Shown here piece by piece: positions 4,052-48,648 of a DNA stretch of 64,000 bases. Source of the stretch: Alicyclobacillus sacchari (lineage in GTDB: Bacteria > Bacillota > Bacilli > Alicyclobacillales > Alicyclobacillaceae); contig NZ_SORF01000003.1 of the NCBI RefSeq assembly GCF_004366795.1, forward strand, positions 186,001 through 250,000. Direction: 5' to 3'. How positions within the stretch are numbered: the first letter of the stretch is position 1; each line of letters opens with the position of its first letter. Position numbers and translations under genes: made by a program. The notes under the pieces were generated by a model. It was not told where the DNA came from. It ran no database searches and saw nothing but the letters and a program-made list of their open reading frames with translations.

Positions 4052-4948
4052 TTACGCCTTTTCGACCGCGTGCCCGCCGAACTGGTTGCGCAGTGCCGCC
4101 TGCACCTTGCCTGTAAACGTATCGTCCTCCTGTGAACGGTAGCGCATCAGCAAGGACATGGCGATAATGGGCGTAGCAGCCTGAATGTCCAGAGCTTCTT
4201 GCACCGTCCACTGACCTTCGCCGGACGAGTGTACGACCCCTCTGATTTGGTCCAAGCGCGGATCTGCACGGAATGCCTTTTCGGTGAGCTCCATCAGCCA
4301 GCCGCGGATGACGGAACCGTTCGACCAACAGCGTGCAACCTCCGCAAAATCATAATCAAACGGACCTTTTTCGAGCACTTCGAAACCTTCGCCGATGGCG
4401 GCCATCATGCCGTACTCGACGCCGTTGTGCACCATTTTGCAGTAGTGGCCGCTGCCCGCGCGACCGGTGTAGACATAGCCGTTTGGCACGGCCGTATCCC
4501 GAAAAATAGGTTCGATGGTCTTGAAGACCTCGGCGTCGCCACCAATCATATAACAAGCGCCATAGCGCGCACCTTCCATACCGCCGGACGTGCCGACATC
4601 GAAGAAGTAAATGCCCTGCTTGGACAATTCTTCAGCGTGACGGACACTCTCCTTGTAGTACGAATTGCCGCCCTCGATGATGATGTCGCCCTTAGTGAGC
4701 AGCGGCTTCAATTGGTCAATCAGGTTGTCGACCGGTTTGCCGTGCGGAACCATCAACCAAACAATGCGCGGAGACTCCAATTTGGACACCAAATCGGAAA
4801 TCGATTCAGCCGGCGTCGCCCCCGCCTCAGCCAAGCGCGCAACTGCGTTCTTGTCGAGATCAAACGCAACCACCTTGTGATTGTGATCCATCATGTTCAG
4901 GGCCAAGTTATGCCCCATCTTGCCAAGCCCAATAAGCCCGACTTGCAT
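4052..4948 (-). CDS. gnd: 6-phosphogluconate dehydrogenase (decarboxylating), short form
   Basis: It oxidises 6-phosphogluconate to ribulose 5-phosphate and CO2. The Rossmann start VGLIGLGKMGHNLALNMM, the EGGNSYY segment, the substrate loop DVGTSGGMEGARYG and the catalytic helix KMVHNGVEYGMM are all visible. At 298 residues it belongs to the short (about 300) NAD-preferring group rather than the 470-residue NADP enzymes. The ATG at 4948 has AAAGGG eight bases upstream; an in-frame GTG three codons earlier is less well placed. With gluconokinase it completes a gluconate-to-pentose-phosphate route. Confidence 0.93.
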   Translation of the reverse strand: MQVGLIGLGKMGHNLALNMMDHNHKVVAFDLDKNAVARLAEAGATPAESISDLVSKLESPRIVWLMVPHGKPVDNLIDQLKPLLTKGDIIIEGGNSYYKESVRHAEELSKQGIYFFDVGTSGGMEGARYGACYMIGGDAEVFKTIEPIFRDTAVPNGYVYTGRAGSGHYCKMVHNGVEYGMMAAIGEGFEVLEKGPFDYDFAEVARCWSNGSVIRGWLMELTEKAFRADPRLDQIRGVVHSSGEGQWTVQEALDIQAATPIIAMSLLMRYRSQEDDTFTGKVQAALRNQFGGHAVEKA

Positions 4949-13473: not shown

Positions 13474-13710
13474 TCATCTGTGCCCCTTGTTGGAACCGTA
13501 CCACAGGTGGTCATGAAAAAACTGACGATACATCCACCATGTAAGCACCCCAGCGAGTGCGCAGTGAAGCGCAAGAAACACGCTTTTTCCGAGAGCCGGA
13601 TGCGGTGAATATAAATAGCGAAACGCAACGACGCCAACCAATTCGAAGTTGAACGCAAACAGAATGCCGACGGTCAATAGCGTCAACAGACCTTTGGTAA
13701 CTCTGGACAT
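13474..13710 (-). CDS. Small membrane protein, two predicted helices
   Basis: The 78-residue frame begins MSRVTKGLLTLLTVGILFAF and has a second hydrophobic stretch SVFLALHCALAGVLTWWMY; the end is rich in His and Trp. No family is recognised. The reading frame can extend to 13833, but a good extended -10 promoter at 13763-13791 lies inside that extension, so translation must start later. ATG 13710 is the first clear choice; GGGGGG stands rather far (14 bases) upstream. It converges with the oxidoreductase gene over a shared terminator. Confidence 0.6.
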   Translation of the reverse strand: MSRVTKGLLTLLTVGILFAFNFELVGVVAFRYLYSPHPALGKSVFLALHCALAGVLTWWMYRQFFHDHLWYGSNKGHR

Positions 13711-13762
13711 GGTGCGAATCGCAAATGCCCCCCAAACGACCACACGTTCTTTCGAGGATATG

Positions 13763-13791
13763 ATTATAGCACGCAAATGGCCGAGCGTCAC
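13763..13791 (-). promoter_or_regulatory. Extended -10 promoter for the small membrane protein
   Basis: On the minus strand GTGACG and TATAAT are 17 bases apart, and TGC directly precedes the -10, giving an extended -10. It is close to and divergent from the L,D-transpeptidase gene. Confidence 0.6.
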
Positions 13792-13944
13792 TGAATAGAA
13801 ATAAGCGTTGGAGGGCGCGGCGTTCGACAGCATGTGACCTGTAGACCTTGCTAGACTGAAAACTGCAGTGTTTCACGGATGAGCGATGCGTCACAATATA
13901 CAGTTGTTGCCGGTCAGATCGGCCTTGGGATGGAGAGATGGCAG

Positions 13945-14901
13945 ATGTGCAAAACTTGGTGGACACGTTGTTTGTCAGCGGTGATAGCAGCCACGGTGTG
14001 GCTCACCCCCTGGGGTATGTCGGAAAACGACAATGCCTCCTTACAACCCGTCCTTGCAGCCCAAGCGACATCGACAAAGAGCGCATCGAGTATATCGACC
14101 AACGCGACGAATCAGACCCATAGCAAACCTCAACCAACAAAGCTGCCGCAGCAACCGAAGCCAGCTGTTGTCGCCGTCGGAACCACGGGCGATGCAGCGC
14201 TTTGGATGAACGAAGCCCTGGCCGAGTTCAATCTGTTGCCCTTGACGTTCAAACCCGCGAATGGAGAAAGCCCTCTGGCCGTATGCAAGGCGCTGCAGGC
14301 CTCGCTTGCCGCTGGTACACTGATACCGGTGGCTGGCTCATGGACATGGAAGACGCCACAGCCTCAAAGCTTGGTGCAGTTGTGGAACCCAAACGTTGCG
14401 TCACCCGTGACGGAAAGTGGCATCATGGCGTTTGAGGCGGCGCAGGGTCTCGCTGTCGATGGCATCGCGGGCCCACAGGTATACGCGGCATTCAAGCAAA
14501 CCTTGACCTCGAATCAGACGGTTGGATCACGACCTTATACGTACATCACCGTCAGCGAGACACGACCTGAGACGCTACGCGTCTGGCAAAACGGAAACGT
14601 GGTACTGACGACACTGGCGAATACCGGTATCTCTGCGTCACCAACGCCCATCGGGACGTTCCCTGTCTATGCACAGTATCTCTCGCAAGACATGCAAGGA
14701 AAGGATCCAAACGGCGTTCCCTACAACGATCCGGATGTACCCTATGTCAGCTACTTCGATGGAGGCTGCGCGATTCACGGGTTTGTCCGCGCCAGCTACG
14801 GATTTCCGCAAAGCCTTGGCTGTGTCGAGTTGCCGCTCGCTATCGCAGGCAAGGTGTTTTCGTACATCCGTATCGGCACACTGGTCACCATCCAAAGCTA
14901 G
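13945..14901 (+). CDS. L,D-transpeptidase (YkuD domain) with peptidoglycan-binding domain, exported
   Basis: The protein starts MCKTWWTRCLSAVIAATVWL, a signal peptide, followed by a low-complexity Ser/Thr/Pro/Gln linker. Around residues 125-170 is a peptidoglycan-binding type 1 domain (FEAAQGLAVDGIAGPQVYAAF). The C-terminus is a YkuD domain with the catalytic block HGFVRASYGFPQSLGCVEL holding His, Ser and Cys. Such enzymes make 3-3 cross-links in peptidoglycan, in Bacillus often in the spore cortex or envelope. GGAGAG seven bases before ATG 13945 decides the start over upstream ATGs at 13879 and 13930. Total 318 residues. Confidence 0.88.
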   Translation: MCKTWWTRCLSAVIAATVWLTPWGMSENDNASLQPVLAAQATSTKSASSISTNATNQTHSKPQPTKLPQQPKPAVVAVGTTGDAALWMNEALAEFNLLPLTFKPANGESPLAVCKALQASLAAGTLIPVAGSWTWKTPQPQSLVQLWNPNVASPVTESGIMAFEAAQGLAVDGIAGPQVYAAFKQTLTSNQTVGSRPYTYITVSETRPETLRVWQNGNVVLTTLANTGISASPTPIGTFPVYAQYLSQDMQGKDPNGVPYNDPDVPYVSYFDGGCAIHGFVRASYGFPQSLGCVELPLAIAGKVFSYIRIGTLVTIQS

Positions 14902-18580: not shown

Positions 18581-19102
18581 TCAGGCGACTTCCAACTTGG
18601 CGACGATGGCCGCCAACACCTGAAGAAGCAACTGCAGCTGAACAGCCAGCTCGGTTGCAACCACCTGAACGCGCACTGCATACGCGTTGTCGACGCGAAT
18701 CACGCGGCGAATCCGCTGTGCTGTGCAGATTCGTGCAAGCAGGTCATCCCTCACCTGCGAAGCCGCGTTTCCATCAGCGACTGATACGCTGAGAACAATC
18801 GCCAAGGCCAATTCGAGAGCCGCCTGCAACGATAGGGCCGCTTGCAAGTCGTGGCTGGCAATCTCGACGTTTTCCGAGTCTTTGACAATGATATCGAGGA
18901 TCGAAGACTCATCGTCGTCGATTTCGAGGATCGCATTCTGTGCAATCTCTGCATTCTCCAACGGCAATTCGGCCTGTGGCAACTCGCACTGTTTCTCGAC
19001 ATCATAATCAAAACCTGATGCCAAAGAGCGTACGGCGGTGTTCCGTGCATTGATCAGCGGCATTCGGTTATGATGTCGGCGACGCCGAACATGCCGATGC
19101 AT
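18581..19102 (-). CDS. CotX/CotV-family spore coat protein, long form
   Basis: The 173-residue protein starts with a basic His/Arg-rich stretch (MHRHVRRRRHHNR), followed by an acidic segment and the CotX domain with its two similar halves: VKDSENVEIASHDLQAALSL and later VAVQLQ-type sequence ending AAIVAKLEVA. B. subtilis CotX and CotV belong to the insoluble crust/outer coat. The ATG at 19102 has AAAGGG six bases upstream; the reading frame runs on to 19432 but overlaps two other genes. It is the last gene of the coat operon. The second CotX half is more diverged than in its neighbour. Confidence 0.82.
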   Translation of the reverse strand: MHRHVRRRRHHNRMPLINARNTAVRSLASGFDYDVEKQCELPQAELPLENAEIAQNAILEIDDDESSILDIIVKDSENVEIASHDLQAALSLQAALELALAIVLSVSVADGNAASQVRDDLLARICTAQRIRRVIRVDNAYAVRVQVVATELAVQLQLLLQVLAAIVAKLEVA

Positions 19103-19113
19103 GTTTTTCCCTT

Positions 19114-19350
19114 TCACCTCACGATACCTCCTTCTGGACCGCTTGCGCTGCCTTTCGCGAGGGTTTGCTTCTGAAAAGCCCAAACGAGCCGTCTCGTTGG
19201 CTTCGTTTCGCGTGCCGCGGCGGACGCCTCGGCATCCAGTTCCTCCGCACGGGCCTCGCCCATTCCCATGCGCGCCATGGCGTCGTGGTACGCCTGATCC
19301 AGCACAGCGCGGACGCGCTCGAGCCTTTGGTTCGGTTCCGCCTCGTGCAT
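19114..19350 (-). CDS. Small charged protein within the spore coat operon
   Basis: The 78-residue product, starting MHEAEPNQRLERVRAVLDQA, is Ala/Glu/Arg-rich and predicted helical, ending with KGSASGPEGGIVR. GGAGGGG stands five bases before ATG 19350, and its stop is directly followed by the ribosome site of the downstream CotX-like gene, so it is translated in the same operon. It has no CotX domain and I recognise no family. A coat-assembly role is inferred from position only. Confidence 0.7.
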   Translation of the reverse strand: MHEAEPNQRLERVRAVLDQAYHDAMARMGMGEARAEELDAEASAAARETKPTRRLVWAFQKQTLAKGSASGPEGGIVR

Positions 19351-19367: not shown

Positions 19368-19805
19368 TCACAGGATCTCGAGCTTTGCAATGATGGCCAA
19401 CAGCACCTGCAACAGCACTTGGATGTTGACACTTGCTTCAGTTGCTGTCGCCGTGACGGTCACATTGCGGGAATTTTCAATGACGGTCCGCTGCTTGATG
19501 CTCTGACGCGTGCGAATCCGTTCAATCAACTCCTGCGCAACATTGTTGGCTTCATTCCCATCGGCGATCGCAATGCTCAACACGAGCGCAATGGCCAGTT
19601 GAATAGCGACCTGGAGATTAACGGCGGCCTGCGTGTCCACGGTGGTGACGGTGATTTCGCACGAATCCTTAATCAGAATGTGCTCATCGTTGACTTGCTC
19701 CGTGCGCGCTGATTCCGTAGCTGCTTGTGAGACACCGCCAAGAGCTGTGGCACACGGGTGTGCCTGTTGTGGGTCAAGTGCAGACCATGTTGTGTTGGCT
19801 GCCAA
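19368..19805 (-). CDS. cotX: CotX-family spore coat protein
   Basis: The 145-residue protein carries two CotX-type halves: ILIKDSCEITVTTVDTQAAV with LQVAIQLAIALVLSIAIAD, and TVIENSRNVTVTATATEASV with IQVLLQVLLAIIAKLEIL at the end. Spacing and wording match Bacillus CotX closely. Such proteins polymerise in the outermost coat or crust. The start is TTG 19805 behind AAGGAG. It follows the CotW-like gene and precedes a 78-residue protein and a second CotX-like protein, an arrangement like the cotVWX cluster of B. subtilis. Confidence 0.9.
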   Translation of the reverse strand: MAANTTWSALDPQQAHPCATALGGVSQAATESARTEQVNDEHILIKDSCEITVTTVDTQAAVNLQVAIQLAIALVLSIAIADGNEANNVAQELIERIRTRQSIKQRTVIENSRNVTVTATATEASVNIQVLLQVLLAIIAKLEIL

Positions 19806-19910: not shown

Positions 19911-20132
19911 TCACTTCTTCCGCTTTGCCTCTGCCTTCTCATTTGGCACTGGCTTCTGCGTTTGTAAGAAGTTTTCGACCTGTGCCTGCAGTGTGTTAAT
20001 GAGGTCGCGCAGCTTTTCCCGCTCTTCGGCTGAGATGGGCTTGCGCTTTTCTTTCGAGATGTTGTGCTTGCGAAACACGTCCTCAATGAGTAGATCGGTC
20101 AGGTTTTTTGTCACATCGTCCATGTCATTCAT
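19911..20132 (-). CDS. cotW: CotW-like spore coat protein
   Basis: The 73-residue protein includes LLIEDVFRKHNISKEKRKPI and EEREKLRDLINTLQAQVENF, and ends with a Lys-rich tail. This matches the CotW pattern ([20 protein letters not shown] in B. subtilis). CotW works with CotX and CotV in the insoluble coat. AAGGAGG precedes the ATG, and a 42-codon frame ends in an ATGA overlap with it. Next to two CotX genes the assignment is good. Confidence 0.82.
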   Translation of the reverse strand: MNDMDDVTKNLTDLLIEDVFRKHNISKEKRKPISAEEREKLRDLINTLQAQVENFLQTQKPVPNEKAEAKRKK

Positions 20133-20308: not shown

Positions 20309-21298
20309 TCATCTCGAAACCAAGGTTGAAACGGGCAGTCGAATCACCACGGTCGTCCCCTTGCCAGGCTTGCTCACAATCTCGAGCGATCCCTTGTGAT
20401 CCTCAAGAATGCGCCGACAAATGAGAATCCCGAGCCCATTGCCGTTCACCTTCGTCGAATAAAATGGACTACCAATCCGTTCCAATTGCTCCGGTGTCAT
20501 GCCCGGGCCTTCATCGGTAAATTTGACGACCACCTGACCGTCGTGCTGAAACGCACGCACAAATAGGCGCCCACCCTGTTGCATCGCTTCAATCGCATTT
20601 TTCATGACGTTGATAAAGACACGTTTGATTTGGTTGGCGTCCCCGGTCGTCCACAACGAAGCATCGGCAATCTGACGGATGATCTCGACGCCATGCATGT
20701 TCGCCTGCGCATGCAACAAGGCAATGGACTCCTCCAATCCTTTGCGGACGTCCAGTTGACCGTGTGTGATGGGCTGTGGTTTCCCAAACAACAGCATTTC
20801 CCCGACGACGGATTGAATAGACTGCAATTCGGATTCCATAATTTCGCAATAACGCACACGATCCTCGGGTGCCGCCTGTGGCATCAACTTGGTGAAGCCA
20901 ATGAGCGCCGTCAACGGATTGCGGATTTCGTGTGCGACACTCGCGGCCAATTGCCCTAATGCGGATAGTTTCTCCGAGTCATATAGCAACTGTTGTGCTT
21001 TCGCAAGTTGCGCCTCTGCACGTTTGCGATCGGTGACGTCGAGGTGAGCCGAAATGATGGCCTTCTGTCCGCGGTAACGTATACTACGCGCGATCAGTTC
21101 CGTCACAATCTCACGCCCGTCAATGGTGCACATACGCCGTTCAAGCAACGGGCTGCTGGCTTCCCCGGTCCGCATAATTCGATCGATCTCGCATCGGATA
21201 TCTTCGACGTCATCTGGATGAACGACATCCCAAATGGACTTACCCAAGATTTGATCTTCGGAGAACGCGCCGATCATCCGCACCGCTTCGCGATTCAC
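20309..21298 (-). CDS. Sporulation-type sensor histidine kinase (PAS, HisKA, HATPase), N-terminus split off by a stop codon
   Basis: From GTG 21298 the product is 329 residues: the rest of a PAS domain, the His box AASVAHEIRNPLTALIGF, the N box NVMKNAIEAM, and G boxes DEGPGM and NGLGI. This resembles Bacillus KinA/KinE-type kinases that phosphorylate Spo0F. However, the same frame continues upstream without ATG, GTG or TTG: YRTFLDNAPFPIFVHADG (the PAS start), then a helix FLGLLTIGSVCAYNLA, then TGA at 21446-21448, then another membrane helix from GTG 21586. The gene therefore looks like a two-helix membrane kinase interrupted by one stop. GTG 21298 would begin within the PAS fold and has no good ribosome site. 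Confidence 0.85.
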   Translation of the reverse strand: MNREAVRMIGAFSEDQILGKSIWDVVHPDDVEDIRCEIDRIMRTGEASSPLLERRMCTIDGREIVTELIARSIRYRGQKAIISAHLDVTDRKRAEAQLAKAQQLLYDSEKLSALGQLAASVAHEIRNPLTALIGFTKLMPQAAPEDRVRYCEIMESELQSIQSVVGEMLLFGKPQPITHGQLDVRKGLEESIALLHAQANMHGVEIIRQIADASLWTTGDANQIKRVFINVMKNAIEAMQQGGRLFVRAFQHDGQVVVKFTDEGPGMTPEQLERIGSPFYSTKVNGNGLGILICRRILEDHKGSLEIVSKPGKGTTVVIRLPVSTLVSR

Positions 21299-21445
21299 AT
21301 ATACCCAATGACCGTCGGCATGAACGAATATGGGAAACGGCGCATTGTCCAGGAATGTTCGATACTCCCATTCAAGTCGAAGTGCTTGACGTGCTAGATT
21401 GTACGCACAGACGGAACCTATTGTAAGAAGACCGAGAAACCGAAC

Positions 21446-21586
21446 TCAAACCGCATAGCCTGGCAGTTGCCTGCCGTAGATGCTATATAGAATACCGTTC
21501 GCTCCAAAATGCCACACGAGTGCGGCAACGACAAAATACACTATGTACACCGCTGGCACCCTGCGATCTACCTGTGACCGTTTCAC
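21446..21586 (-). CDS. N-terminal membrane segment of the interrupted kinase, or a 46-residue microprotein
   Basis: GTG 21586 overlaps the panE stop as GTGA, a normal coupled start. The 46 residues contain one helix (PAVYIVYFVVAALVWHFG) and end GRQLPGYAV before TGA. The frame is the same as the downstream kinase (GTG 21586 lies exactly 96 codons before GTG 21298), and the next in-frame residues form a second helix. I read it as the kinase N-terminus cut by one nonsense codon; an independent small protein is the alternative. Confidence 0.6.
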   Translation of the reverse strand: MKRSQVDRRVPAVYIVYFVVAALVWHFGANGILYSIYGRQLPGYAV

Positions 21587-22500
21587 GGAGACGCTGGCGT
21601 GATCGCCCGAATCGCGCGATACAAAACCTCGTTGACCGGTGTAGGTACGCCTAACTGGCGCCCAATCTGAAGTACTCGTCCAGACAGTTGTTCGACTTCA
21701 GTCGGCCTCCCGGCCTCGACATCCTGCAACATCGATGTTTTCCCAGTTGGTGCCATAGCGTATAACACATCATCAAAACGATCAATATCGTCTTCGCTCA
21801 GTTCAATACCAAGTTGCCTGGCGATGGCAATGACTTCGCGCATGGCCATCGCCATCACGGTATGCGCGTCTGTCGATTGCTGAAAAACGCCATAGGGCGC
21901 GCGCAGGATGGCCGATGTTTGATTGATTCCGACGTTGATCATAAATTTCCACCACATCGTGCGTAAAATGTCGGCGGGGACCTCATAGCCAATACCCGCA
22001 CGTTCAAAGAGCTCACGCACGCGCTCCACAATGTCCGGTTGCTGACCTGAGGCGTCCCCAAAGCTGATATACCCAAGGCTGCTAAACGTCACATCTGAGC
22101 CACTGCGAACAGCGTCAATGGCAATACAAACCGCATGCAAGATTGGATTGTTCGGGTAAACATCCCGTATGTCATCTTCACTTGCAATACCGTTTAATAG
22201 AGAGATAAAAATGGTATTGGGACCAACGTGCCTGCGTATGTCTTTCAGCGCCTGAGCCAGACCATCGTATTTAACCGCAATCAGGACAAGATCAGCTGGC
22301 TCCACATCTTCATCCGGCAATACGTAAGAAAACGCGATGTCCTGGCCATTGACGACAACAGGCCTTTCGCGGTATCGATCTTTGCGTGTTCGATCAACGA
22401 CCACACTCAACTCTGTCTCCGTAGCCATGAGCAGCCGACTGCCATAAGCAGCCCCAACCGCCCCAAGTCCAATTAGTGAAACGCGACGAATGCGCTCCAT
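21583..22500 (-). CDS. panE: 2-dehydropantoate 2-reductase (ketopantoate reductase) family
   Basis: The 305-residue protein has the Rossmann motif VSLIGLGAVGAAYGSRLL, the ketopantoate segment LIAVKYDGLAQAL with its lysine, LLNGIASED, and the C-terminal domain MWWKFMINVGINQ. PanE reduces ketopantoate to pantoate with NADPH for coenzyme A synthesis; paralogues reduce other 2-keto acids. ATG 22500 follows AAAGGTGA; the frame extending to 22635 runs into the opposite promoter region. Its stop overlaps the start of the kinase N-terminal segment. Confidence 0.88.
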   Translation of the reverse strand: MERIRRVSLIGLGAVGAAYGSRLLMATETELSVVVDRTRKDRYRERPVVVNGQDIAFSYVLPDEDVEPADLVLIAVKYDGLAQALKDIRRHVGPNTIFISLLNGIASEDDIRDVYPNNPILHAVCIAIDAVRSGSDVTFSSLGYISFGDASGQQPDIVERVRELFERAGIGYEVPADILRTMWWKFMINVGINQTSAILRAPYGVFQQSTDAHTVMAMAMREVIAIARQLGIELSEDDIDRFDDVLYAMAPTGKTSMLQDVEAGRPTEVEQLSGRVLQIGRQLGVPTPVNEVLYRAIRAITPASP

Positions 22501-22629
22501 TCTCAACTCACCTTTCTCCACTTCTAGCATACGACACGGTGCAAGCCCAAACATGTACAGATTAGGTTGGGTGCATCCTGCAACCGCATGTTTTTCGGCA
22601 TGCTGTGTCAGGATAATGTACGTAGGCAA

Positions 22630-22659
22630 TTGCATAAAACCGAAGGTTGTATTTATAAT
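22630..22659 (+). promoter_or_regulatory. Sigma-A-type promoter of the amino acid ABC operon
   Basis: TTGCAT and TATAAT are 18 bases apart, 31 bases before the GTG start of the binding protein gene. The position fits well. Confidence 0.6.
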
Positions 22660-27588: not shown

Positions 27589-27759
27589 TCAATCCTGCAG
27601 CGGGCCAAATTCTATCTCGCTCCATTCCTCGGTCTCACCAGAGTCCCATTCAATCACCAATGTTCGAAGCAGACAGGCCGGATTTGTCATAATGCCGACA
27701 ATTTGACCGGATACTTGACGATCAGGGTGTTTGACGGTATCTCCAACGCATATCCTCAT
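27589..27759 (-). CDS. Small acidic protein, 56 residues
   Basis: The frame reads MRICVGDTVKHPDRQVSGQI and ends EFGPLQD. A near-ideal ribosome site, AAGGAGG, lies seven bases before the ATG. The GDTVKHPD...GQIVGI pattern looks like a small beta-barrel of SH3/KOW kind, which is only an impression. It converges with the diguanylate cyclase gene (3 bases between stops) and is divergent from amyA. Confidence 0.6.
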   Translation of the reverse strand: MRICVGDTVKHPDRQVSGQIVGIMTNPACLLRTLVIEWDSGETEEWSEIEFGPLQD

Positions 27760-27994
27760 GTTTCGCCCTCCTTAGTCCTAGCTGCTTACAAACCTTTTCC
27801 ACGCCATACCTTTCCTCATCATACGCATAAAACAATACGGTTGTAAGCACTTTCATCTCTATGCTATCTTAATCTGTGACAGTCTTCATAAGTGTCGCCC
27901 GATTGTGCAAACGATTGCATAGCGAATATGCTATAAGCACCTCGTTGCGCAGCCGAGACGATGCTTGTGATGAACAAGGCAAAGGGGGATTTTC
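27760..27994. other. Divergent intergenic region before amyA
   Basis: These 235 bases are A+T-rich and hold the amyA control region. An operator-like palindrome sits at 27906-27919. TTGTGC (27903) with TATGCT 18 bases later (27927) is a possible promoter that the operator would block. No further gene is seen. Confidence 0.45.
27906..27919. promoter_or_regulatory. MalR-type operator before amyA
   Basis: TGCAA-ACGA-TTGCA is an inverted repeat with the GCAAACG half found also in GCAAACGTTTGC before malE. It overlaps the likely -35 region of amyA, so binding would repress. Control by the MalR encoded in the same locus is inferred. Confidence 0.6.
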
Positions 27995-46150: not shown

Positions 46151-47452
46151 CTACTTGCGAACTTGTCCGTCTCCGTGCACGACGTATTTGTAACTCGTCA
46201 ATTCACGCAACCCCATCGGTCCGCGCGCATGCAGCTTTTGCGTCGAAATGCCAATCTCGGCGCCAAAGCCAAACTCAAAGCCATCCGTAAAGCGCGACGA
46301 TGCGTTATGATACACCACAGCCGCATCGACGCGCTGTAAAAACTGCTCTGCGGCAACTTCGTCCTCCGTGATAATGACTTCCGAATGTGCCGTCCCGTAG
46401 CGCTCGATGTGCGCGATCGCGTCGTCAAGGGAATCGACGATGCGCACGGCGAGTGTCAGCGCCAGATATTCGGTCGCCCAGTCGGCTTCTGTCGCGTGTT
46501 GCACAAGATCCGCGAGTCCAACCGCTGCTAGCGCCGCATACGCGCGATCGCATACACGCAGTTCAACGCCGCTGGCGAGCAAGGTCCGCGCCGCTTCCGG
46601 AAGCCATTGCGCCGCCACATCTTTGTGCACGAGCAGCGTTTCAGCCGCGTTACACACGGATGGCCGTTGTATTTTCGCATTCACGATCACGGCTGTGGCC
46701 TTCGCAAAGTCAGCCGCCTTATCGACATAGACGTGGCAGTTCCCCACGCCAGTCTCAATGACCGGCACAATGGCATTCTCGACAACGCGCCGAATCAAAC
46801 CTTCGCCACCGCGCGGTATCGCGAGATCGACCAACCCCCGCGCCCGAATTAACATGTCGACCGTTTCCCGCTCCGTCCGCTCGACGAGCAACACAGCATC
46901 CTGCGGCAACCCGGCCGCTGCCAACCCGCGATGTAGCGCCCGTACAATTGCCTGGTTGCTCTTCAAGGCCTCGCGGCCGCCGCGTAACACTGCGACATTG
47001 CCCGTTTTCACAGCCAATCCCGCCGCGTCGACCGTGACGTTTGGGCGGGCTTCGTAGATCATGGCGATAACGCCCATGGGCACGCGCACCTTCCGGATAT
47101 CGAGGCCATTCGGACGCACGAAATGCTCCATCCGCTCTCCCACCGGATCGGGCAATTCGATCAGCGCGGCCAGCCCATCCACCATTTGCCGCACCCGCCG
47201 CTCATCGAGCGCCAGTCTGTCGATTCGCGCTTCCGGCTGGCCGGCCTCGCGAGCAGCCGCGACATCTTCCATATTCGCCGCGAGAATTGCGGCACATTCC
47301 GCCCACAGAGCCTTCCCCATCTCGCGCAGCGCTTCGTTCTTCTGTTTGGTCGATGCCACGAAAAGCGTTCGTTTCGCCCCTTGCGCGCGGCGCAACATCT
47401 CATGGACTGCCTCCTGCAGCGCCATCGCACTGCCACTCGGCGCCTCCGTCAT
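46151..47452 (-). CDS. proA: Gamma-glutamyl phosphate reductase
   Basis: ProA reduces gamma-glutamyl phosphate to glutamate semialdehyde, the second step to proline. The 433-residue aldehyde-dehydrogenase-fold protein has YEARPNVTVDAAGLAVKTGN, the catalytic Cys in RPSVCNAAETLLVH, and FGAEIGISTQKLHARGPMG at the end. Its ATG overlaps the proB stop (ATGA), so the two are made together as a pair. Confidence 0.95.
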   Translation of the reverse strand: MTEAPSGSAMALQEAVHEMLRRAQGAKRTLFVASTKQKNEALREMGKALWAECAAILAANMEDVAAAREAGQPEARIDRLALDERRVRQMVDGLAALIELPDPVGERMEHFVRPNGLDIRKVRVPMGVIAMIYEARPNVTVDAAGLAVKTGNVAVLRGGREALKSNQAIVRALHRGLAAAGLPQDAVLLVERTERETVDMLIRARGLVDLAIPRGGEGLIRRVVENAIVPVIETGVGNCHVYVDKAADFAKATAVIVNAKIQRPSVCNAAETLLVHKDVAAQWLPEAARTLLASGVELRVCDRAYAALAAVGLADLVQHATEADWATEYLALTLAVRIVDSLDDAIAHIERYGTAHSEVIITEDEVAAEQFLQRVDAAVVYHNASSRFTDGFEFGFGAEIGISTQKLHARGPMGLRELTSYKYVVHGDGQVRK

Positions 47453-48576
47453 CTCACATTCGCCCCCTTCACCAATACCATGTCATTGCGATGGACGACT
47501 TCGTGCACGTTGTGTAAATCCTCGCCAGCCCGGCGGCGCGCCAGTAAATCGTCGAGATCGCGAGCGGAAAAACTCGTAATGCCCTTGCCGACCGGTTCGC
47601 CCTTCATGCTTTGCAAGAGGACCACCGCTCCTTCCTGAAAGTCACCTTCGATCCGAACGATGCCAGGTACGAGCAAACTTCCACCAGCCGTCAATAATGC
47701 GCGCACCGCACCCTCATCGATCATCAACGAACCTTCTGGCTTGGGTGCATGCATCAGCCATGACTTGCGCAAGCTGACCGGCTGCGGCGACGCCAGAAAC
47801 CGCGTCCCGACAGCTTCACCGGCCAAGACGCGACGCAAAACGTCCGGTGTCTCCGCGCTTGCAATCACCACTTCAACTCCGGCCCGCACCGCCGCCTTGG
47901 CAGCGATCAACTTCGTGCGCATGCCGCCAGTGCCAACCACGCTGCCAGCGCCTCCGGCCAATCGTTCGATCTCGTCGGTAACCTCCGCCACGACTTCAAT
48001 TCGCTTCGCCGAAGGATCCGTGCGCGGATTTGCCGTGTACAGACCATCGATATCCGTCAGCAAAACGAGCCTATCCGCCTCCGACACCAAAGCCGCGAGG
48101 CCGGCGAGCGAATCGTTGTCACCAAACCGGATCTCCTCAACCGCCACCGTGTCGTTTTCGTTGATGATTGGCACAATGTCGTGGCGCAACAAAGCCTGAA
48201 CAGTATTCCGAATGTGCACAAAACGCTTTCTATCTTCAACGTCCGCACGTGTCAACAGCAACTGGCCCACATGGAGCCCTTCCTTGGCAAACAATCGCTC
48301 GTACTCCTCCATGAGCGCCGTCTGCCCGACCGCCGCAGCCGCTTGCTTTTCGGGCATTGAGATGCGGGCGCGCTGCCATCCTAGCTTGCCTAGCCCCGCT
48401 GCGATCGCACCCGAAGACACCAACACCACGTGCCAGCCCCCTTCTCTATAGAGCGTGGCAATTTGCTTGACCAACCGCTCCATCTTCGCGATCGCCAAAA
48501 CGCCGGAGCCATCAGTCAAGGAGCTCGATCCCACTTTCACGACGGCGCATTGCCGACGCCTTGTCCCGTTCGTCAT
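47449..48576 (-). CDS. proB: Glutamate 5-kinase with PUA domain
   Basis: ProB phosphorylates glutamate, the first step of proline synthesis and the point of proline feedback. The 375 residues comprise an amino acid kinase domain (VVKVGSSSLTDGSG, VSSGAIAAG, INENDTVAVEEIRFGDND, GTGGMRTKLIAAKAA) and a C-terminal PUA domain from about residue 275. Length is typical. GAGG lies ten bases before the ATG. I looked for a proline T-box in the short leader and found none. The FAH-family gene lies 72 bases upstream on the same strand, so they may share a transcript. Confidence 0.95.
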   Translation of the reverse strand: MTNGTRRRQCAVVKVGSSSLTDGSGVLAIAKMERLVKQIATLYREGGWHVVLVSSGAIAAGLGKLGWQRARISMPEKQAAAAVGQTALMEEYERLFAKEGLHVGQLLLTRADVEDRKRFVHIRNTVQALLRHDIVPIINENDTVAVEEIRFGDNDSLAGLAALVSEADRLVLLTDIDGLYTANPRTDPSAKRIEVVAEVTDEIERLAGGAGSVVGTGGMRTKLIAAKAAVRAGVEVVIASAETPDVLRRVLAGEAVGTRFLASPQPVSLRKSWLMHAPKPEGSLMIDEGAVRALLTAGGSLLVPGIVRIEGDFQEGAVVLLQSMKGEPVGKGITSFSARDLDDLLARRRAGEDLHNVHEVVHRNDMVLVKGANVR

Positions 48577-48648
48577 TGAATGTTCGCCTCAACTTGTTTG
48601 AATTGCAGAGGGCTTCCTTGCCCCTATCTCCCTGTGCAGGGCAGAAAC

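Follow-up and report, generated by a model that had tools for sequence, protein, structure and literature searches.

A premature TGA at codon 47 interrupts a PAS histidine kinase gene beside panE in Alicyclobacillus sacchari

The window analysed here, a stretch of 64,000 nucleotides of Alicyclobacillus sacchari DNA, carries on its minus strand a histidine kinase frame at 20309-21586, comprising 425 codons and a terminal TGA with one interruption at codon 47. Translation of the frame from 21586 to 20309 gave exactly one internal stop, the TGA at 21446-21448. The 5' piece (21449-21586, minus strand) consists of 46 codons, starts with GTG and contains a first hydrophobic stretch at codons 10-28. 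Codons 48-96 (21299-21445, minus strand) encode the bulk of a second hydrophobic stretch together with the beginning of the PAS domain and are devoid of ATG, GTG and TTG. The first such codon 3' of the TGA is GTG 21298, codon 97, which lies inside the PAS domain. It opens the longest downstream reading frame with a standard start (20309-21298, minus strand; 329 aa), which has a truncated PAS domain followed by HisKA and HATPase_c. Pfam matches 3' of the TGA were PAS, HisKA (E 1.9e-14) and HATPase_c (E 7.7e-27). By Kyte-Doolittle averages, the most hydrophobic 19-mers of the window kinase span codons 10-28 and 43-61, and those of two orthologues span 9-27 and either 46-64 or 41-59; the membrane helices are putative, being predicted from these averages alone. 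The first-pass annotation had described a frame that stays coding through the TGA and for 46 further codons up to GTG 21586, with no ATG, GTG or TTG between the TGA and GTG 21298, and our translation confirms this. Its proposal that reading through the TGA would give a kinase with two membrane helices, PAS, HisKA and HATPase agrees with the Pfam domains and the two hydrophobic stretches.

The kinase lies next to a panE-type ketopantoate reductase gene (ApbA, ApbA_C; 21583-22554, minus strand). The start of panE is putative: its mechanical reading frame spans 21583-22635, and the mechanical reading frames of the relatives align from 22554. As noted before, the kinase start GTG 21586 and the panE stop share letters in the sequence GTGA, an overlap also found in both orthologues. 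Also near the kinase, on the minus strand, are two spore coat genes of the Coat_X (CotX/CotV) type, at 18584-19183 and 19368-19805, with two domain matches each. Between these and the kinase, at 19911-20132 (minus strand), is a gene for a small protein of 73 aa with a weak CATASP match (E 0.0015, below the cut-off). No response regulators were seen among the neighbours.

The genome contains 17 HisKA matches and a SPOB_a match. An HEIRNP[LI]T box is present in 7 of its kinases, including the interrupted one, where it reads HEIRNPLT; we take this H-box to be typical of orphan sporulation kinases. With HisKA carrying an HEIRNPLT-type H-box and HATPase_c, the interrupted kinase has the features used here to define the KinA-E type. 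The label 'sporulation-type' is nevertheless putative, as it is based only on the HEIRNPLT H-box and the absence of response regulators among the neighbours seen. The first-pass annotation proposed that losing one phosphorelay kinase would affect sporulation timing. This effect is hypothetical: six further kinases of the genome have the same H-box, and sporulation need not change when one of them is lost.

A search of 61 genomes, including that of the window, identified two close orthologues, both free of stops and 81% identical across nearly the entire frame; the next best among the matches listed had 41-43% identity and covered less of the query. The two are from A. hesperidum DSM 12489 (NZ_FNOJ01000012.1) and A. 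tengchongensis CGMCC1504 (NZ_JXBW01000005.1). Both lie beside panE, as in the window, and share the frame and the H-box of the window kinase. Codons 1-421 align with them without gaps. Because the 46 codons 5' of the TGA are part of this gap-free alignment with two uninterrupted genes, the interrupted frame is not a chance frame. The first-pass annotation had envisaged orthologues that lack the first helix and start cleanly downstream. Instead, both start at the same GTG as the window kinase and contain the first hydrophobic stretch.

Codon-by-codon comparison located the difference to codon 47, which is TGG (Trp) in both close orthologues and TGA in the window; the stop is thus conserved in neither of the two. 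The first-pass annotation had named a sense codon at this place in orthologues, for example CGA, as the mark of a mutation; the sense codon found is TGG. TGG and TGA differ by one G-to-A transition, and the simplest history would be a single such transition on the lineage of the window, or a base error.

The kinase looks restricted at this place to a small clade. Among 15 genomes of the genus, including the window's own, an HE[IFLVM][RK]NP box beside panE was found in three (the window, A. hesperidum and A. tengchongensis); in the other 12 none was present within 1.5 kb on either side of the best panE match, a search that passes over kinases with another box or with the box further away.

Next to the kinase comparison stands a measure of selection, obtained by Nei-Gojobori counting. 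Between the window and A. hesperidum, dS was ~1.0 and dN/dS 0.10 over 419 codons; across the two relatives, dN/dS was 0.10-0.11 overall and 0.04-0.05 in the kinase core. By part, the values against A. hesperidum were 0.33 for the 45 codons 5' of the TGA (codons 2-46; few changes, 17 nonsynonymous and 13 synonymous), 0.125 for codons 48-96, 0.148 for PAS and 0.044 for HisKA/HATPase, and those against A. tengchongensis were close to these. All changes are unpolarised, as counted without an outgroup orthologue. Codons 2-96 showed no excess of nonsynonymous over synonymous changes relative to PAS (Fisher p = 0.87), a weak test if the stop is very young. Because the kinase frame is under strong purifying selection, the stop would be recent relative to the species split. 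From the nonsynonymous count of the core, the share of the window's branch spent without constraint, f, would be at most ~0.12-0.15, with a looser bound of 0.24 from the whole kinase frame; these bounds subtract no normal change, assign about half of dS to the window's branch and take the core as no longer expressed. Judged by these sequence comparisons, the premature stop is young.

We compared the whole window by tblastn with the relatives' mechanical reading frames of at least 100 aa, 63 from the A. hesperidum contig and 92 from the A. tengchongensis contig. Matches were obtained for 45 and 52 of these, and after rows of at most 55% identity were dropped, 44 and 48 frames were listed; the survey of stops covers these apart from the two-piece match of a 679-aa frame and partial matches. 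Stops occurred in 9 of the 44 and 10 of the 48, the kinase being one of them in both sets. The kinase TGA was the sole internal stop judged to be real, and the other 8 and 9 cases were discounted, in part as a matter of judgement. Stops at 126, 14961, 25343, 26413/26431, 27773-27971, 40267/40249 and 53010 are in the 5' ends of over-extended frames of the relatives, with a long window frame downstream in the same phase. The stops within 47636-48449 belong to a spurious frame at 47381-48577 (plus strand; 425 aa in one relative and 413 aa in the other), which has three stops in the window and runs antisense to an intact frame that we take to be glutamate-5-kinase-like. The stop at 19504 is antisense to a Coat_X gene, that at 4133 is in the wrong frame as judged by codon-position mismatches, and those at 27704/27716, in a 106-aa frame, may be either real or spurious. 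Frames of 163 and 169 aa in the relatives match the window in two phases at 13480-13966 (minus strand). The phase difference, at 13799-13966, probably concerns a 5' extension that is not coding; an ATG-started window frame at 13833 covers the conserved part. One such broken gene in about 45 is nothing unusual.

Decoding of the TGA was considered at the level of the genome. A search for SelA gave no match in this genome, with matches in 2 of 14 genomes of the control, E. coli and M. jannaschii; selenocysteine at the TGA was rejected on this ground. tRNA genes were typed with ARAGORN on the loci of the best 30 of 69 RF00005 matches and on eight further stretches, and a script confirmed that all 69 were covered. 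None of the 71 distinct tRNA genes has the anticodon TCA, and a suppressor tRNA of this kind was likewise rejected. There is one tRNA-Trp(CCA) gene among all 69 matches (L146:1673-1748). It has A at position 24, where E. coli trpT has G, and a normal anticodon stem of 5 bp. The G24A exchange is the Hirsh change, which enables UGA read-through, and variants with a 4-bp anticodon stem have been linked to UGA reading, according to PMC13092985; the 5-pair stem found here is unlike the latter. A tRNA-Trp with 100% identity is encoded by 31 of the 61 searched genomes, the window's own included, and A24 is therefore a background trait of the group and no adaptation to the kinase gene. A24 may in itself point to UGA leakage throughout the group.

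We consider the TGA to be most likely a recent nonsense mutation that created a young null or strongly reduced allele of the PAS histidine kinase. The ancestral product would have been a histidine kinase with a PAS domain and, at its N terminus, two hydrophobic helices, its gene starting in overlap with the panE stop. A TGG-to-TGA mutation at codon 47 would then have arisen in the strain or the species, which is represented by one genome. Translation from the native GTG would halt after 46 residues, yielding one helix and no catalytic part, and the downstream frame would at best be poorly translated, from starts inside PAS or through rare UGA-to-Trp leakage. Several results argue for this account: both close orthologues are intact, with the GTGA start and with TGG, a single transition away from TGA; dN/dS is low and the bounds on f are small; no further stop in the window's matches to the relatives was judged to be a real internal one; and neither SelA nor a TGA-reading tRNA was found. 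The frame, its TGA and the orthologues with Trp and the same start are direct sequence observations, from which we infer a genuine base, coupling of the kinase to panE and inactivity of the allele. Against this account, the strong constraint and the absence of a further stop would also be seen were the kinase still produced, through read-through or from a start downstream, and dN/dS is higher at codons 2-46 than in the rest, on few changes.

Of the four options raised by the first-pass annotation (nonsense mutation, base error, read-through codon, or split gene with a non-standard start), the Trp codon and the common GTG of the orthologues favour the first two and speak against an ancestral split gene. 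A base error would mean that the genome truly has TGG and that the kinase is intact. This is unlikely, even though the sequence is a draft of 66 contigs and a single wrong base would account for everything, including the purifying selection and the absence of a second stop in the frame. Assembly errors are less often single-base substitutions than indels, and this assembly does not look error-rich: compared with the two relatives, the window has no further internal stop that we judged to be real. That the gene was split ancestrally, or is recoded in a programmed manner, for instance with selenocysteine, has a negligible probability: both orthologues run uninterrupted, with Trp, from the same GTG, and the genome has no SelA.

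The remaining alternatives assume that kinase is still made. In one, infrequent but still useful decoding of the TGA as Trp restores the residue of the ancestor and supplies the kinase at reduced dosage. The A24 tRNA-Trp, the persisting constraint and the UGA reading of ~6% in B. subtilis (reported in PMC6316719 and PMC7918605, in both cases by citation of earlier studies) are in line with this, and some full-length kinase may leak through by UGA-to-Trp reading. As an explanation of the locus it is nevertheless improbable, since the same tRNA in about half of the genomes searched indicates no special adaptation, its anticodon stem is normal, both orthologues have TGG, and a mutation that is very young would leave just as much constraint. 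If it were true, the gene would be a naturally occurring example of leakage through a stop codon that sets how much of a developmental kinase is made. A more elaborate form, that the TGA is maintained as a leaky switch which the A24 tRNA-Trp reads at a few percent, perhaps dependent on growth phase, giving low and variable sporulation kinase and heterogeneous entry into sporulation, is a long shot. It is also very improbable that a soluble kinase without the membrane helices is made from an internal start, either GTG 21298 or a non-standard ATA or CTG between it and the TGA. The 329-aa frame does retain intact HisKA and HATPase_c, but GTG 21298 truncates PAS, and codons 2-96, which would then be free of selection, show no nonsynonymous excess over PAS, within the power of that test for a very young stop.

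A recent nonsense mutation thus remains the preferred explanation, and as such the finding is ordinary: one more young nonsense allele, in one of the seven kinases of the genome that share the phosphoacceptor box. An annotation should record the gene as interrupted, not as a 329-aa kinase that starts inside PAS. The orphan sporulation kinases KinA-KinE of B. subtilis combine PAS, an HEIRNPLT-type H-box and HATPase, as is the case here, where no response regulators were seen among the neighbours either; the window copy differs by its premature stop. Compared with bacterial genes with single in-frame stops, as described in a survey (PMC7918605), the kinase shares the combination of an in-frame stop and dN/dS below 1, seen here in one genome of the species.
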